Source of the DNA: Alphaproteobacteria bacterium Ga0077535
GTDB taxonomy: Bacteria; Pseudomonadota; Alphaproteobacteria; Caulobacterales; Aquidulcibacteraceae
Length of the DNA: 34,258 bases
Reading direction: 5' to 3'
Assembly (NCBI GenBank): GCA_001464425.1
Contig: LNEK01000028.1
Location: 1-34,258, forward strand
The translations under genes and the position numbers were made by a program. Positions 2,553-24,988 of the stretch are shown here, one piece after another. How positions within the stretch are numbered: position 1 is the stretch's first letter; each line of letters begins with the position of its first letter. The notes below the pieces were generated by a model that was not told the DNA's origin, ran no database searches, and was given only the letters and a program-made list of their open reading frames with translations.

Positions 2553-3326
2553 ATGTCAGCCCGTCAGCTGATCGTTCTCGTTGTTGCCGCAGTTGCGGCT
2601 ATCGGCGCCCTCTTCTTGATCCGCAGCATGGGCAGCGGCAACGCCGACGCCGCGGCTGCCGAAGGCGAGCCCGTCGCTGGTGAGCAAGTGCTCGTTGTGG
2701 CGCGCGATGTGCCGCAAGGCGCGGCGCTCACGCCGAGCGATCTGGCCGTCGCTGTGTTTCCAGAGGGATCGATTTCACCAAGCTATGTGCGACTTTCGGC
2801 GCAACCTTCGGCGCAAGCTGAATATGTCGGCGCAGTGACGCGCCGCGCTTTTGTGGCCGGCGAGCCGATCACCAATGCTTATGTCGTGCAGCCAGAAGGC
2901 CGCGGCTTCATGGCGGCGCAGCTGGAGCCGGGCTATCGCGCCGTCGCCATCGAAGTGGCGCGCGAGACGGCCGCCGGCGGTTACATCCAGCCGAATGACC
3001 GCGTCGACGTGATCATGTCGCACAGCTTCCAGGAAGGCGGCCAAGAGCGCGTCTCCAGCGAGATCATTCTGGAAGACATTCGCGTTCTGGCGCTGGGCGA
3101 CACGACGCAAACGCAAACTAGCGGTGAAGCGCCGCAAAGCATCGACGCCGCCGTCGCCGTGCTTGAGATGTCGCAAGAAGACGCCCGTACGCTCGCCCTG
3201 GCCGATCAGCTTGGCGAAGTGACGTTGGCGTTGCGCGGCGCGCAGGTCGACACGGTTGGTTTGAATTCGCAGCGGCGGCGCAATGGCGTTCACGCATACG
3301 GCACGGTCTCCGGGGGAAGCAGATGA
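2553..3326 (+). CDS. cpaB: Flp pilus assembly protein CpaB/RcpC
   Basis: A 257-residue protein with an N-terminal membrane helix (about residues 5-23), a SAF domain (about 43-112, with VLVVARDVPQGAALTPSDL) and the RcpC/CpaB domain (about 120-250, with GYRAVAIEV and NDRVDVIMSH). Family knowledge: a periplasmic component that works with the secretin CpaC/RcpA. ATG 2553 has GGGAG about 7 nt upstream. Its stop overlaps the start of cpaC as ATGA at 3323-3326, indicating coupled translation of the two partners. There is nothing unusual in its length or residues. Confidence 0.93.
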   Translation: MSARQLIVLVVAAVAAIGALFLIRSMGSGNADAAAAEGEPVAGEQVLVVARDVPQGAALTPSDLAVAVFPEGSISPSYVRLSAQPSAQAEYVGAVTRRAFVAGEPITNAYVVQPEGRGFMAAQLEPGYRAVAIEVARETAAGGYIQPNDRVDVIMSHSFQEGGQERVSSEIILEDIRVLALGDTTQTQTSGEAPQSIDAAVAVLEMSQEDARTLALADQLGEVTLALRGAQVDTVGLNSQRRRNGVHAYGTVSGGSR

Positions 3327-8665: not shown

Positions 8666-9645
8666 TGGATCCGGCGCTGCTTGCGGCTGTCTTGGCTTTC
8701 GTTGCAGTCGGCGGCGTTGGTCTCGCCTTCAGCGGCGGCGGCTCACAACCGGTGACTGCGACGAAGCGCGTCAAGCAGGTTGCGGGCACGCAGAAGAGCG
8801 ATCGGCGTAACCAAGCGGTTGAGAACGCCGCCCTGAAGCGGCGGCAAAGCACGCAGGAAGCGCTGAAAGACCTAGCCAATAGCGAGAAGCAATCGCGCAA
8901 GCGCCGCTACTCGGTGAAAGGCCAGATCGCGCAGGCCGGCATCAAGCTTACGCTCACGCAATATTGGATGATGGCGGGCGCGGCCGCAGCCGTCCTGACG
9001 ATCGCGGGCCTGATCATCCAAGGGCCGATCGGCGCCGCAATGGGATTCTTCATCGGCCTGTTCGGTCTGCCCCGCTGGGTGCTCGGCTTCATGGTCGGCG
9101 GACGGCAAAAAAAATTCGCCAGTCAATTGGCCGACAGCATCGATGTCATCGTACGCGGCGTGAAATCCGGCCTGCCGCTTGGCCAGTGCTTGCGCATCAT
9201 CGCAGCGGAAAGCCCGGAGCCGCTGCGAAGCGAATTCCAGCAGCTGGTCGATTCACAAGCCATGGGCGTGCCGCTCGAAACCGGCATGCAGCGCATGTAC
9301 GACCACATGCCGCTGCCGGAAGTAAACTTCTTTTCGATCGTGCTGATCATTCAGCAAAAGACCGGCGGCAACCTTTCGGAGTCGCTTGGCAACCTCTCCT
9401 CCGTGCTGCGCTCGCGCAAGCTGATGGTGGAGAAAGTGAAGGCGCTTTCGGCCGAAGCAAAGGCCTCCGCGATGATCATCGGCTCGTTGCCGGTTTGCGT
9501 CGGCGGCTTGGTCTATTTCACACGCCCGGCCTATATCGGCGTTCTATTCGAACACCCTGTCGGCCATCTCATTCTCATGGGCTGCGTCGTGCTGATGTCC
9601 GCCGGCATCTTCATCATGCACAAAATGGTCAACTTCAAATTCTGA
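8665..9645 (+). CDS. tadB: Tad inner-membrane platform protein TadB
   Basis: A 326-residue polytopic protein: N-terminal helix (4-22), a basic cytoplasmic linker (about 35-80), membrane helices around 100-135, a T2SSF domain (about 158-284, with DSIDVIVRGVKSGLPLGQCL and QQKTGGNLSESLGNLS) and two C-terminal helices. Family knowledge: the TadB/TadC pair forms the PilC/GspF-like platform that couples CpaF to pilin insertion. The ATG overlaps the cpaF stop. Length and motifs are regular. Confidence 0.94.
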   Translation: MDPALLAAVLAFVAVGGVGLAFSGGGSQPVTATKRVKQVAGTQKSDRRNQAVENAALKRRQSTQEALKDLANSEKQSRKRRYSVKGQIAQAGIKLTLTQYWMMAGAAAAVLTIAGLIIQGPIGAAMGFFIGLFGLPRWVLGFMVGGRQKKFASQLADSIDVIVRGVKSGLPLGQCLRIIAAESPEPLRSEFQQLVDSQAMGVPLETGMQRMYDHMPLPEVNFFSIVLIIQQKTGGNLSESLGNLSSVLRSRKLMVEKVKALSAEAKASAMIIGSLPVCVGGLVYFTRPAYIGVLFEHPVGHLILMGCVVLMSAGIFIMHKMVNFKF

Positions 9646-21222: not shown

Positions 21223-22059
21223 ATGACCGACTATATTTCCTTTCAAGGCGAACCTGGGGCGAACTCACACATCGCTGCCCGCGCCGCCTTTCCACAACTC
21301 GAGCCGCTGCCGTGCGCAAGCTTCGACGACGCCTTCGCGGCCGTTAGCGAAGGCCAGGCGCGCTACGCCATGATCCCGATCGAGAACTCGGTCGCGGGGC
21401 GCGTCGCGGATGTACACACGCTGATCCCGGAGAGCGGGCTCTACATTATCGGCGAACGCTTCGTGCCGATTAGGCATCAATTGCTCGGCCTGAAAGACGC
21501 CACGCTTGAAGGCCTGACGCACGTGCGCTCGCACCCGCAAGCCCTCGGCCAGTGCCGCAAGCAATTGCGGGAGCTTGGCGTGGCTGCAGTGAAGACAGCC
21601 GATACCGCCGGCGCGGCACGCGAGATTGCAGAGCTCGGCGATCCGCGCATCGGTGCGCTTGCATCGGGACTTGCTAGCGAGATTTATGGGCTGAAAGTGC
21701 TGAAAGCCGACATCGCGGACGCGCCGCACAACACGACGCGGTTTTTGGTGTTCGCGCGCGAGGCGCAGAACGCGGCGCTGGGTTCGGGCCCCTGCATGAC
21801 GAGCTTTGTCTTCCGCGTCCGCAACGTGCCCGCGGCGCTCTATAAGGCGCTCGGCGGCTTCGCAACCAACGGTGTCAACATGACCAAGCTTGAGAGCTAC
21901 ATCGAAGGAGGCGCGTTCTCGGCGGCCATGTTCTTTCTGGAAGTCGAAGGCCACCCGGAAGAGCAGGCCCTGCGGCTGGCGCTGGAGGAATTGGCATTCT
22001 TTTCTACGTCGCTGAAAGTGCTGGGAGTTTACCCGGCCGACCCGTTCCGGCGGACGTAA
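21223..22059 (+). CDS. pheA: Prephenate dehydratase
   Basis: A 278-residue monofunctional enzyme converting prephenate to phenylpyruvate in phenylalanine synthesis. The PDT domain (about 4-180) has GEPGANSHIAA, PIENSVAGRV and the catalytic HNTTRF (Thr172). The ACT regulatory domain (about 193-272) includes GVNMTKLESYIEGG, the phenylalanine-binding site, so feedback inhibition is expected. No chorismate mutase domain is fused. Its stop codon lies within the GTAACC motif of the downstream sigma-factor promoter. It is divergent from the esterase gene with a very short gap. Confidence 0.96.
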   Translation: MTDYISFQGEPGANSHIAARAAFPQLEPLPCASFDDAFAAVSEGQARYAMIPIENSVAGRVADVHTLIPESGLYIIGERFVPIRHQLLGLKDATLEGLTHVRSHPQALGQCRKQLRELGVAAVKTADTAGAAREIAELGDPRIGALASGLASEIYGLKVLKADIADAPHNTTRFLVFAREAQNAALGSGPCMTSFVFRVRNVPAALYKALGGFATNGVNMTKLESYIEGGAFSAAMFFLEVEGHPEEQALRLALEELAFFSTSLKVLGVYPADPFRRT

Positions 22060-22081
22060 CCGCCGCTAGCGCCGGCGCGTA
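22056..22081 (+). promoter_or_regulatory. SigF-like ECF promoter before the sigma/NrsF operon
   Basis: GTAACC (22056-22061), a 16-nt spacer and CGTA (22078-22081) precede the TTG start at 22101 by 45 nt measured from the -35. The motif resembles the reported Caulobacter SigF consensus GTAACC-N16-CGAA (recalled, 9 of 10 positions). It shares GTAACCGCCGC with the site upstream of the DoxX gene. This supports positive autoregulation of the operon. It overlaps the pheA stop codon. Confidence 0.7.
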
Positions 22082-22100
22082 AGCACTCTCGGGAGGGCCA

Positions 22101-22643
22101 TTGGCGGACGAAACCGCACTTCGAGCCTTGTTGCTCCAGGGCCTCGCGGGCGATGAGGCCGCGCATCGCGCTTTCCTGACGGAAGCGGCGGCGCTGCTTC
22201 GCGCCTACTTCCGCAATCGGCTGCGCGGGCGGCCAGAGGATGCGGAGGATCTGGTGCAGGAGACACTGGTGGCGCTGCACACAAGACGCGAAAGTTACGA
22301 TCCGAACTACCCTCTCACGGCGTGGCTCTACGCCATCGCACGCTACCGGCTGATCGATTTTCTACGCCGCGCCAAGCATCGTGCACATGCGCCGCTCGAT
22401 GGGCTCGACGTCGGCGACATCGATCCCGACTACGAGGCGACGGACGCCAAACACGATATCGGCGTGCTGCTCGGCAAGCTTCCGGAAAAGCAACGCATCG
22501 CCATCCGTATGGTGAAGCTTGAAGAGAAAAGCGTGCGCGAAACGGCGGACGCGACCGGCCTCAGCGAAAGCGACATTAAGATTTCCATCCATCGCGGCCT
22601 GAAGACGCTGATGCGCCTGATGGCCGAGGAGCAAGTATCGTGA
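22101..22643 (+). CDS. ECF sigma factor, SigF/NrsF-type
   Basis: A 180-residue group IV sigma factor. The start is TTG 22101, backed by GGGAGGG 3-9 nt upstream. Region 2 shows LRGRPEDAEDLVQETLVALHTRRESYDPNYPLTAWLYAIARYRLIDFLRR; region 4 shows LPEKQRIAIRMVKLEEKSVRETADATGLSESDIKISIHRGLKTLMRLM. The WLYAIARYRLIDFLRRAKHR pattern and the downstream NrsF-like gene place it in the group of Caulobacter SigF, which responds to chromate, cadmium and oxidative stress. It is coupled to its anti-sigma factor by a GTGA overlap (22640-22643). A matching promoter lies just upstream. Confidence 0.93.
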   Translation: MADETALRALLLQGLAGDEAAHRAFLTEAAALLRAYFRNRLRGRPEDAEDLVQETLVALHTRRESYDPNYPLTAWLYAIARYRLIDFLRRAKHRAHAPLDGLDVGDIDPDYEATDAKHDIGVLLGKLPEKQRIAIRMVKLEEKSVRETADATGLSESDIKISIHRGLKTLMRLMAEEQVS

Positions 22644-23281
22644 AAACCGACGATCTCATCGAAGCGCTGGCGCGCGGCGCTGGGCCCGCGGACAAGCAAC
22701 ATTGGCGGCGCGATTTGGCGCTGACATTGCTGGTCGGGCTTGTCGTGTCGGCGGTGCTGGTTGTGGTGTTTCTTCAGGTGCGGCCGGACATCGGCGCGGC
22801 GCGCATGCCGGTGATGATGAAGGCGATGTTCTCAGCTTTGGCGGCGGCCGTGATCTTGCCGTTTGCGCTGCAATTGATGAAGCCGGGCCGCCCGCTGGGG
22901 TGGCGCATCGGGGCTGTGCTGGTGTTCGCGGGCGTGTGCGTGCTGGCGACCGTCGTCGCGCTTATGGGCGAGATGCCGGAGCGACGCTGGGAAGCGTGGA
23001 TGGGCGGGCGCGGCGGCGTGCCGTGGTGCGTGGTGCTGATCCCGATTTTGGCCGCGCCGACAGCGGCTCTGCTCACGTGGTTCATGCGCGCGTTTGCCCC
23101 GACGCGCATCACGCTGACGGGCGCTGCGATCGGCGCAGTGTCCGGCGGCATCGCCGCGATGGCCTACGCAATGTATTGCCCGACAGACTCGGTGGCGTTC
23201 GTGACCACGTGGTACACGCTGGCGATTGCCGTGTGCGCGGCGCTGGGCGCGGTGATTGGGTCGAAGTTTTTGCGCTGGTGA
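22640..23281 (+). CDS. nrsF: NrsF-like (DUF1109) anti-sigma factor
   Basis: A 213-residue protein with a short cytoplasmic N-terminus (KTDDLIEALARGAGP) and six predicted membrane helices, the layout of NrsF/DUF1109 proteins that hold an ECF sigma factor at the membrane. GTG 22640 follows GAGGAG. Cysteines are at 100, 130, 180 and 199. C130 (GVPWC) and C180 (AMYCPTDS) sit at the loop or helix-end positions where Caulobacter NrsF has its two functionally important cysteines, so redox or metal sensing is plausible. Symbol assigned by family and context. It lies directly after the sigma gene and before a convergent membrane protein gene. Confidence 0.9.
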   Translation: MKTDDLIEALARGAGPADKQHWRRDLALTLLVGLVVSAVLVVVFLQVRPDIGAARMPVMMKAMFSALAAAVILPFALQLMKPGRPLGWRIGAVLVFAGVCVLATVVALMGEMPERRWEAWMGGRGGVPWCVVLIPILAAPTAALLTWFMRAFAPTRITLTGAAIGAVSGGIAAMAYAMYCPTDSVAFVTTWYTLAIAVCAALGAVIGSKFLRW

Positions 23282-23300
23282 TTTTTGACTGACACCGCGT

Positions 23301-23765
23301 TCAAACTCGCGCGTTCAGCGCCCGCCACGCTTCGATCTGCTCCACGATCTCTCGCGCGCTGTGGTCGCCGAAGACGCAAAGGATGCGGCGGCCAAGCAGT
23401 TTGGTTGCGCGTTCTTCGGCGTCGCGCGGAGCGTCAAGCGGATAGGCGAACCAAAGCGTCCGGATGAACAAGAGACTGGGGAGCGGTGCGGGCTTGGTGT
23501 CCAGCGGGCCCATCCGAGACCACGCGAAGCTCTCGGTGCGGCCGAGCGTGTGATGGATGAGCGCCCCCGAAGTGAGTTCGAGCCGCCAGCGCTCGCGCAT
23601 AAAACCGGCGGCAAGAGCGGCGACGAGCGGCAGCGACGCGATGGCCGTAAGCAGGATCGGCATCGCCTGCCAGCTTTCCCAGTGCAGCCACAGTGAAAGC
23701 GCCAGCAGCGCCCAGAGCGGACTAAACAGGCGCAAGACTTTTTCGGGATTCACCGGGAAGTTCAT
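23301..23765 (-). CDS. Hypothetical membrane protein, PH-like
   Basis: A 154-residue protein with two adjacent N-terminal membrane helices (about 14-28 and 33-55) and a cytosolic C-terminal domain. The domain reads as short strands (RWRLELTSGALIHHTLGRTESFAWSRMG, then RRILCVFGDHSAREIVEQIEAWRALNA), which recalls bacterial PH-like domains, but I cannot name the family. It lies between the sigma/NrsF unit and the DoxX operon, convergent with nrsF by 19 nt. No GTAACC motif is seen upstream, so it is probably not part of the same regulon. Confidence 0.7.
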   Translation of the reverse strand: MNFPVNPEKVLRLFSPLWALLALSLWLHWESWQAMPILLTAIASLPLVAALAAGFMRERWRLELTSGALIHHTLGRTESFAWSRMGPLDTKPAPLPSLLFIRTLWFAYPLDAPRDAEERATKLLGRRILCVFGDHSAREIVEQIEAWRALNARV

Positions 23766-23816
23766 CGGCGTTGCTTAGCGTGGCAGATGCGGCGCGTCGC
23801 TGGTGAGCGCGCTCTC

Positions 23817-23925
23817 GCCCTTTGGGGGGGGGCTGAGTGGGGGGGGCCGGCAGGATGCAGCGCCGTCACCAGAACTCGCGATCCATTCTGAAAGCCCCCA
23901 CCTCCAACTTCTCCCCCAAGGTGAA
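23817..23925. repeat. Degenerate palindromic intergenic repeat with G runs
   Basis: The left arm carries CCTTT followed by a run of nine G, then CTGAGT and a run of eight G. The right arm (about 23895-23925) is a diverged reverse complement of it (CCCCCACCTCCAACTTCTCCCCCAAGG). Such CCTTGGGGGAGGTGGGGG palindromes are common intergenic debris in alphaproteobacteria. ORFs across it are spurious, with low-complexity translations rich in Gly or Pro. The G runs are error-prone to sequence and could vary in length. Confidence 0.6.
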
Positions 23926-23938
23926 GAAGAGTTTTCGT

Positions 23939-23964
23939 GTAACCGCCGCACACCTTCGCGCGAC
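23939..23964 (+). promoter_or_regulatory. SigF-like ECF promoter before the DoxX-YHS operon
   Basis: GTAACC (23939-23944), a 16-nt spacer and CGAC (23961-23964) lie 49 nt (from the -35) before ATG 23988. The -35, the following GCCGC and the spacer length are the same as at 22056-22081. This makes the DoxX-YHS operon a probable target of the neighbouring ECF sigma factor. Confidence 0.68.
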
Positions 23965-23987: not shown

Positions 23988-24512
23988 ATGCTCAAGCACA
24001 TCCAACGTTTCGCGCCGATCGCGATCTCGGTTTTCGCCGCTGCGGTCTTCTTAGACTCGTTGCGCTACAAATTCACCGATCACCCGAACACGCAGGAAAT
24101 CTTCGGCCGCCTTGACGGCTGGGCCGCTTCGATCGGCGCGGGCGGATTGTTCGCGCACACGGGCTTGTTCAGCCAGTACGTCATTGGCTCTGCCGAGCTC
24201 GTCGCCTCGGCGCTTCTTCTTGTCGGCCTCCTGCCCGGCTTGGTGCGGCTGAACGCACTCGGCGCTGCTATCGGCTTGGCGGTGATGACCGGCGCAGTAA
24301 GCTTTCACCTGTTTACGCCGCTCGGCATCGATCCGAACAATGACGGCGGCGGGCTGTTCGCAGCGGCGGTCACCATTTGGGTGTCGTCGATCGTGTTGCT
24401 GTTTCTGCGCCGCGCCGAGATCGGTGCGCTGCTAGGCGACATCACCCGCGCATTCGTGCCGAACGCGGCCGCCACACAAACCCGCTCATCCCTTGAAGGC
24501 GCGCGCGCCTGA
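23988..24512 (+). CDS. DoxX-like membrane protein
   Basis: A 174-residue protein with four predicted membrane helices and the DoxX pattern: LDSLRYKFTDHPNTQEIFGRLDGWAASIG near helix 1, the repeated SAELVASALLLVGLLPGLVRLNALGAAIGLAVMTGAV, and SFHLFTPLGIDPNNDGGGLFAAAVTIW. Family knowledge: DoxX-like proteins act at the membrane in redox and thiol stress, and several are under SigF or similar ECF control. GAGGGGG precedes ATG 23988 by 4 nt. The YHS gene follows 17 nt after its stop, so they form an operon under the GTAACC promoter. Confidence 0.88.
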   Translation: MLKHIQRFAPIAISVFAAAVFLDSLRYKFTDHPNTQEIFGRLDGWAASIGAGGLFAHTGLFSQYVIGSAELVASALLLVGLLPGLVRLNALGAAIGLAVMTGAVSFHLFTPLGIDPNNDGGGLFAAAVTIWVSSIVLLFLRRAEIGALLGDITRAFVPNAAATQTRSSLEGARA

Positions 24513-24529: not shown

Positions 24530-24988
24530 ATGCTTCGTCGCTTATTTTTCGCACTAACGCTGCTCGCCGCGCCGATCGCGCTCGCGCCTGCTGCCCATGC
24601 TGACACTGCGCCGGTGCACACCGGTCTCCTCTCACGCGTTGCTGTGGGCGGCTACGATCCGGTTGCGTACTTCACCGATGGCCGGCCGGTGCGTGGCAGC
24701 GAGCGATATCGCATCATGCATCAAGGCTACGAGTATCGCTTTGCAAATGCTGAGAACTTGGCGGCGTTTCGCGCTAGTCCCGCGCGTTATCTGCCACAAT
24801 ATGGCGGGTATTGCGCCTGGGCGGTGAGCCAAGGCTACACCGCCGCCGGCAATCTGAACAATTGGCGCATCGTCGATGGCCGGCTCTATCTCAACTACAA
24901 CGACGAAATTCAAACGCGCTGGGAAGGCGACATTCCCGGGCACATCCGCCGGGCCAATACCAACTGGCCCGGCGTGCTGAGCCGTTAA
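24530..24988 (+). CDS. YHS-domain exported protein
   Basis: A 152-residue protein with a signal peptide (cleavage near AHA/D at 24-25) and a YHS-like domain (about 33-110): VAVGGYDPVAYFTDGRPVRG, then EYRFANAENLAAFRASPARYLPQYGGYCAWAVSQGY. The only cysteine of the mature protein is C95 in GGYC, the position typical of periplasmic YHS (seleno)proteins. ATG 24530 is preferred over TTG 24524 because GGAG lies 7 nt upstream. Metal or thiol chemistry in the periplasm is likely but not proven. Second gene of the DoxX operon; its stop shares TTAA with the convergent hydrolase gene. Confidence 0.88.
   Translation: MLRRLFFALTLLAAPIALAPAAHADTAPVHTGLLSRVAVGGYDPVAYFTDGRPVRGSERYRIMHQGYEYRFANAENLAAFRASPARYLPQYGGYCAWAVSQGYTAAGNLNNWRIVDGRLYLNYNDEIQTRWEGDIPGHIRRANTNWPGVLSR

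Follow-up and report, generated by a model that had tools for sequence, protein, structure and literature searches.

Conserved SigF-type sites suggest that an ECF16 SigF/NrsF switch controls a DoxX-YHS gene pair and methionine sulfoxide reductase genes

We analyzed a 34,258-nucleotide (nt) stretch of DNA (contig LNEK01000028.1, positions 1-34,258, of assembly GCA_001464425.1; hereafter "the window") from Alphaproteobacteria bacterium Ga0077535, whose own genome is labelled G000. The window encodes a SigF-like extracytoplasmic function (ECF) Sigma factor, an NrsF-type anti-Sigma factor, a DoxX-like protein and a YHS protein. Comparison with related genomes suggests that SigF and NrsF form a redox switch of the ECF16 type, with DoxX-YHS and methionine sulfoxide repair (msrA, msrB) as its output; we put the probability of this at about 0.88. 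An earlier sequence-only reading of the window had proposed that the Sigma factor controls its own gene and doxX-yhs, and this proposal is supported by the conservation of the putative promoter sites in relatives and by their co-occurrence with NrsF. Because the two sites in the window are conserved and co-occur with NrsF, we take both to be promoters of the local Sigma factor, an assignment that the comparative evidence strongly supports.

The gene order is pheA (21223-22059), sigF, nrsF, a minus-strand open reading frame (ORF) of 154 amino acids (aa), the DoxX-like gene and yhs. The features of interest are as follows.

22056-22081, plus strand: putative autoregulatory SigF-type promoter, GTAACC-N16-CGTA, sequence GTAACCGCCGCTAGCGCCGGCGCGTA
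22101-22643, plus strand: gene for the SigF-like ECF Sigma factor, TTG start (PF04542, 5.6e-15; PF08281, 4e-12)
22640-23281, plus strand: gene for the NrsF-type anti-Sigma factor (152.4 bits on PF06532, cut-off 26.8)
23939-23964, plus strand: putative SigF-type target promoter before the DoxX-like gene, GTAACC-N16-CGAC, sequence GTAACCGCCGCACACCTTCGCGCGAC
23988-24512, plus strand: gene for the DoxX-like protein, ATG start, 174 aa, a helical bundle that presumably resides in the inner membrane
24530-24988, plus strand: gene for the YHS protein, presumably exported, with an N-terminus that resembles a signal peptide by eye (152.7 bits on NF041384, cut-off 70)

Both sites are present where the sequence-only reading had placed them, with the same 16-nt spacer and the shared 11-mer that it described, 45 nt before the TTG codon at 22101 and 49 nt before the ATG codon at 23988. 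The -35 element of the sigF site overlaps the stop codon of pheA. Pfam profiles match both region 2 and region 4 of the Sigma factor, and the adjoining anti-Sigma gene belongs to the NrsF/DUF1109 family. C130 and C180 of the window NrsF form a conserved cysteine pair, and both residues are present in all 13 aligned homologs.

The bare pattern GTAACC-N16-CG is unspecific, and by itself it is weak evidence for promoters. It occurs four times in the window; shuffled windows had a mean of 0.38 occurrences, and four were reached in 0 of 100 shuffles. The two remaining window sites (2961-2984, minus strand; 8807-8830, plus strand) are inside called genes. Across the whole G000 genome there are 73 occurrences, with ~44 predicted by scaling the window shuffles. 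When genes were called with a simple codon-based caller, 38 of the 50 GTAAC-N17-CGWM sites in G000 fell within a called gene on one strand or the other, and the remaining 12 fell outside. Four of the 50 fall 30-90 nt before a called start: those of sigF, doxX, msrB and a weak 147-bp ORF. Among the other non-coding sites and eight GTAACC-N16-CGWK sites we found no convincing further targets, given the simple gene caller and a genome-wide search that did not extend to GCAAC or shorter-spacer forms. The genome-wide pattern search suggested in the sequence-only reading thus gives many matches outside promoters, an outcome which that reading had itself named as counting against it. The case therefore rests on conservation, which does provide support.

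We sampled 61 genomes, of which 38 encode NrsF and 44 encode the DoxX-like protein. GTAAC-N17-CGW was counted in up to 300 nt of upstream sequence, with 200 rounds of dinucleotide shuffling per gene. The site precedes sigF in 27 of 28 genomes, doxX in 27 of 28 NrsF-bearing genomes, msrB in 16 of 20 and msrA in 8 of 14; for each of the four genes the shuffled sequences reached at most two sites. A scan of spacings from 8 to 26 found no alternative spacing more than five times, and the 140 nt before nrsF contained no site in any of 28 loci. The distance from site to start is 39-46 nt for sigF in same-genus loci, and 46 to 82 nt for doxX among the sequences with an ATG at that point. The sigF -10 element is CGTA in 27 of 27 cases. 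The doxX element varies (CGTC in 8, CGAA in 6, CGAC in 5, CGTA in 5 and CGAT in 3). Thus, CGTA is fixed for sigF, and the CGAC of the window is one doxX form among several. The -10 element is CGAA (15 cases) or CGTT (one case) for msrB, and CGTA in 8 of 8 cases for msrA. The GCCGC that follows GTAACC in both window sites is mostly unconserved in relatives. In one genome with no match to DoxX (G025), the yhs gene directly carries the site.

The doxX site follows the presence of NrsF. In a first set of 44 doxX loci from 43 genomes, 27 of 29 loci in NrsF-bearing genomes have the site, as compared with 1 of 15 in NrsF-lacking genomes (Fisher 1.5e-8, uncorrected for kinship). In four genomes (G021, G032, G034 and G035), doxX is on a different contig from nrsF and the site is still present. 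Among genomes from other genera of the family, the NrsF-bearing G032, G034, G035 and G036, each from a separate genus, all have a doxX site; the NrsF-lacking genomes G030, G031 and G033 all lack one. A second, overlapping set comprised 80 named loci, the best 80 of 145, with either 16 or 17 bases allowed after GTAAC. The site is present at 19 of the 20 loci linked to SigF/NrsF, three of which lie at a contig end and are linked to NrsF alone, and at 13 of the 36 loci with neither SigF/NrsF nor LysR nearby. A check for NrsF covered 50 of the 60 named loci without linked SigF. NrsF scored over the cut-off in 12 of the 13 genomes that carry the site, as compared with 3 of the 37 that lack it (Fisher 4.5e-8); three of the 12 (L161, L164 and L196) are genomes already in the first set (G032, G034 and G021).

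The sequence-only reading described a local regulon. The sites at sigF and doxX-yhs agree with that description, but the unlinked msrB and msrA genes also carry the site, so the regulon is not local only. Both genes were identified in G000 by family profiles. MsrB scores 154.7 bits on TIGR00357 (cut-off 113.05), with a site 30-90 nt before the start, and MsrA scores 221.6 bits on TIGR00401 (cut-off 108.1), with a site 149 nt before the start. Variant forms add to the conserved ones: for msrB, one spacer base fewer in G009 and G013 and a single GCAAC-N17-CGTA; for msrA, GCAAC-N17-CGTA in four more of the 14 orthologs. Two same-genus genomes, G014 and G022, have no match to NrsF or to the DoxX-like protein. 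In both, the sequence upstream of msrB keeps the TGGACGAA block and has lost the GTAAC -35 element at the right spacing. Of the two, G022 is the cleaner case of loss, since G014 has a completeness of 89% and an interruption in its msrB frame. This promoter remnant suggests how a regulon decays. Separately, the sequence upstream of msrA in one locus (L225:1040-1188) is a long leader, similar in 8 of 14 orthologs, with a SigF-type site at its far end; it could contain a second promoter or encode a small RNA.

Several observations weigh against control of all these genes by one switch. The window NrsF scores 110.4 bits on the Caulobacter NrsF equivalog NF042994, far under the cut-off of 300. The well-placed sites in G000, four as compared with ~1.4 expected (an estimate that assumes 3,700 genes), are barely above chance. 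Kinship among the genomes and overlap between the samples make the Fisher values overstate independence. The doxX gene of G010 has CTAT at the -10 position, and a second doxX copy in G036 has no site. One named locus (L199) has a GTAACG site in a genome without NrsF. Conversely, the genomes of L154, L174 and L200 have NrsF and no site before doxX; the Sigma factor gene beside NrsF has a site in the L174 genome and none in the 150 nt examined in the L154 genome. At L140 and L144 the spacer is 1 nt shorter and no site was seen at the Sigma factor genes of those genomes; hence, these loci provide weaker support. For the msr genes, both forms of the site are absent from 2 of 14 msrA and 1 of 20 msrB upstream regions. 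Outside the genus, GTAAC-N17-CGW precedes msrB in 0 of 4 and msrA in 0 of 8 cases, despite the presence of NrsF in G038 and G046. Control of msr genes by the site is therefore seen only within the genus, with the other genera of the family untested for msr. Lastly, the msrA site, at 131-149 nt upstream, may be one of two promoters or may serve another transcript.

Could the two window sites be chance matches in a GC-rich genome? The 73 genome-wide occurrences of the bare pattern, and the position of two of the four window sites inside genes, fit such an origin. Against it stand the association with NrsF and the fact that 27 of 28 genomes keep the site, at exactly the same spacing, before orthologous genes. 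We reject a chance origin on these grounds, and regard it as extremely improbable. It is also very improbable, though somewhat less so, that a different Sigma factor reads the sites. The obvious candidate is a second NrsF-associated Sigma factor in G000 (G000:C12; loci L016 and L085). This pair has no GTAAC-N17-CG site upstream, whereas the promoter of the window Sigma factor itself carries one; moreover, 33 of the 38 NrsF-bearing genomes have a single NrsF match. The second pair (24787-25392 of C12) is ~42-47% identical to the window pair, and comparable pairs occur in G008, G018 and G028.

An explanation that deserves more weight, although we still consider it unlikely, accepts that SigF reads these promoters and holds that the main signal is metal (copper, chromate or cadmium), with DoxX-YHS as a metal-handling system that replaces bufferins. 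The SigF regulon of Caulobacter crescentus responds to chromate, cadmium and copper (PMC3511200, PMC8224329), and the bufferin enzyme is missing from G000. On the other hand, MsrA and MsrB as co-targets fit damage by oxidants or chlorine, as for EcfF of Bradyrhizobium japonicum (PMC3420878).

How would the SigF/NrsF switch act on DoxX-YHS and methionine sulfoxide repair? By analogy with described systems, NrsF, as a membrane protein with two conserved cysteines, would hold SigF and would release it upon oxidant or metal stress. Free SigF with RNA polymerase would then read GTAACC-N16-CGWN promoters, namely those of its own operon (-10 element CGTA), doxX-yhs, msrB and msrA. Under stress from oxidants, chlorine or metals, the switch is thus predicted to promote repair of the envelope and of proteins: MsrA and MsrB would reduce methionine sulfoxide, and DoxX-YHS may be a membrane-bound pair that handles redox reactions or metals. 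The DoxX-like and YHS families are poorly understood, and a tie to a redox switch and to methionine sulfoxide repair would offer a direct route to their function.

The closest parallel is the SigF/NrsF system of C. crescentus, which likewise pairs an ECF Sigma factor with an NrsF that has two conserved cysteines (PMC3511200). Its promoters are GTAACC-N16-CGAA, including one before sigF itself; the window sigF has CGTA instead. Caulobacter SigF targets include DoxX (CC3257), YedY (MsrP) and the bufferin enzyme MNIO, which appears as DUF692. DoxX is part of a DUF2282/DUF692/DUF2063 (bufferin) operon there; in contrast, the DoxX-like protein here is from another sequence group and is paired with YHS, G000 has no MNIO, and the repair targets are MsrA and MsrB (PMC3511200). 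EcfF/OsrA of B. japonicum is also an ECF16 switch, with cysteines at positions 129 and 179, and it controls three predicted methionine sulfoxide reductases (PMC3420878). Its promoter, GTAAC(g,a)-N14-15-(c,t)CG(t,a), differs from the window sites in the spacer, and DoxX and YHS are unmentioned in that study, where several targets are named only as hypothetical proteins. BcrS/AbcS of Brucella, with bcrXQP, is an ECF16 switch as well, and it has been linked to hypochlorous acid and the oxidation of methionine; its targets are a methionine-rich peptide and MsrPQ, and the study mentions neither DoxX nor YHS (PMC8315932). RpoE2 of Haemophilus influenzae, which is associated with hypochlorite stress, and SigE of Neisseria resemble the proposed switch in being ECF Sigma factors that control MsrAB and a DoxX gene cluster. 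However, the Haemophilus anti-Sigma factor is unlike NrsF, being cytoplasmic and 67 aa long, and the DoxX of these systems sits in a bufferin-like cluster (COG3767, UPF0276, DUF2063), with YHS unmentioned in that paper (PMC7907618).

That ECF Sigma factors can control Msr genes, and a DoxX gene in some cases, is already known. The sequence-only reading described the exported YHS/DoxX pair as not usually a target of this type of Sigma factor. For DoxX with YHS this holds in the literature searched, but another DoxX, CC3257, is a known target in Caulobacter. We found DoxX-YHS as a target nowhere in the literature on DoxX and ECF Sigma factors, which was examined in part for YHS; PMC3511200, PMC8224329, PMC12452194 and PMC6180224 do not mention YHS. 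A search for DoxX with a YHS domain found no literature. Searches for the YHS domain found only a selenoprotein survey in combination with Sigma factors and, in combination with periplasmic proteins and oxidative stress, only seemingly unrelated work, as judged by titles and the beginnings of abstracts. As an ECF16 target, DoxX-YHS is thus new relative to the literature searched.

The MNIO family (PF05114) provides a link to bufferins. Of 23 sampled genomes of the genus, among them G000, two encode MNIO, and G000 itself has no match. Both of these genomes have GTAACC-N16-CGAA upstream of the MNIO cluster and on its strand. In L063 (G011) the site is 60 nt from the first ORF of the cluster; in L066 (G012) the distance was taken to the MNIO ORF itself and is 393 nt. 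Since the site is upstream of MNIO in both genomes, the motif is tied to SigF independently of DoxX-YHS. L063 has a further GTAACC-N16-CGAA (position 2863, plus strand) at a distance of 49 nt from the ORF downstream of it; this ORF is divergent, neighbors the cluster and resembles a TonB receptor by eye. In L066, an ORF next to MNIO (2740-3195) is DoxX-like by position and look, but BLAST found no meaningful similarity (E 65) between it and the window DoxX.

Regulators other than SigF/NrsF are found beside doxX. At 24 of the 80 named loci, doxX has a LysR gene no more than 2.5 kb away, and none of the 24 has the site. YHS is present at 24 of these 24 loci, and pheA is within 8 kb at 18 of 24. 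In Hyphomonas loci L153, L166 and L190, a LysR gene on the opposite strand separates pheA from doxX; L153 has an extra plus-strand gene, AhpD-like by eye, between LysR and doxX. With LysR at some loci and SigF/NrsF at others, one gene pair is thus found under different regulators, and the locus near pheA resembles a natural experiment in which one regulator replaced another and the promoter was gained or lost to match. We tentatively propose, at somewhat less than even odds, that DoxX-YHS is a self-contained, bufferin-independent envelope module for redox or metal handling that is wired to whichever stress regulator adjoins it near pheA (SigF/NrsF in this family, LysR in Hyphomonas and relatives), and that in this family it replaces the bufferin operon as a main SigF output beside methionine sulfoxide repair.

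The two proteins of the pair differ in how well they match known families. By Pfam the DoxX label is weak (PF07681, 13.3 bits, under the gathering cut-off of 23.6). The predicted fold is compatible with a DoxX-like bundle; in a fold search with this model, the entries below NACHO were mostly unrelated helical bundles, and a profile search of solved structures gave no matches. The YHS protein scores 26.4 bits on PF04945, under the gathering cut-off of 30.3. It has a single invariant cysteine, C95, in 12 of 12 sequences. Its structure model is poor (predicted local distance difference test score, pLDDT, 46.4), and a profile search of solved structures gave two matches (E 0.067 and 0.12), both to large unrelated proteins.

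The remaining features concern the surroundings of these genes. An Rfam scan of the window found no families at the gathering threshold. The 154-aa ORF between nrsF and doxX (23301-23765, minus strand) has no family matches, and tblastn of the searched loci found its protein elsewhere only in G010. Between this ORF and the doxX promoter are two runs of G, of 9 and 8 bases (23824-23846). Downstream, a gene for a beta-lactamase-family serine hydrolase (PF00144; 24985-26418) is convergent with yhs and overlaps it by 4 bases.

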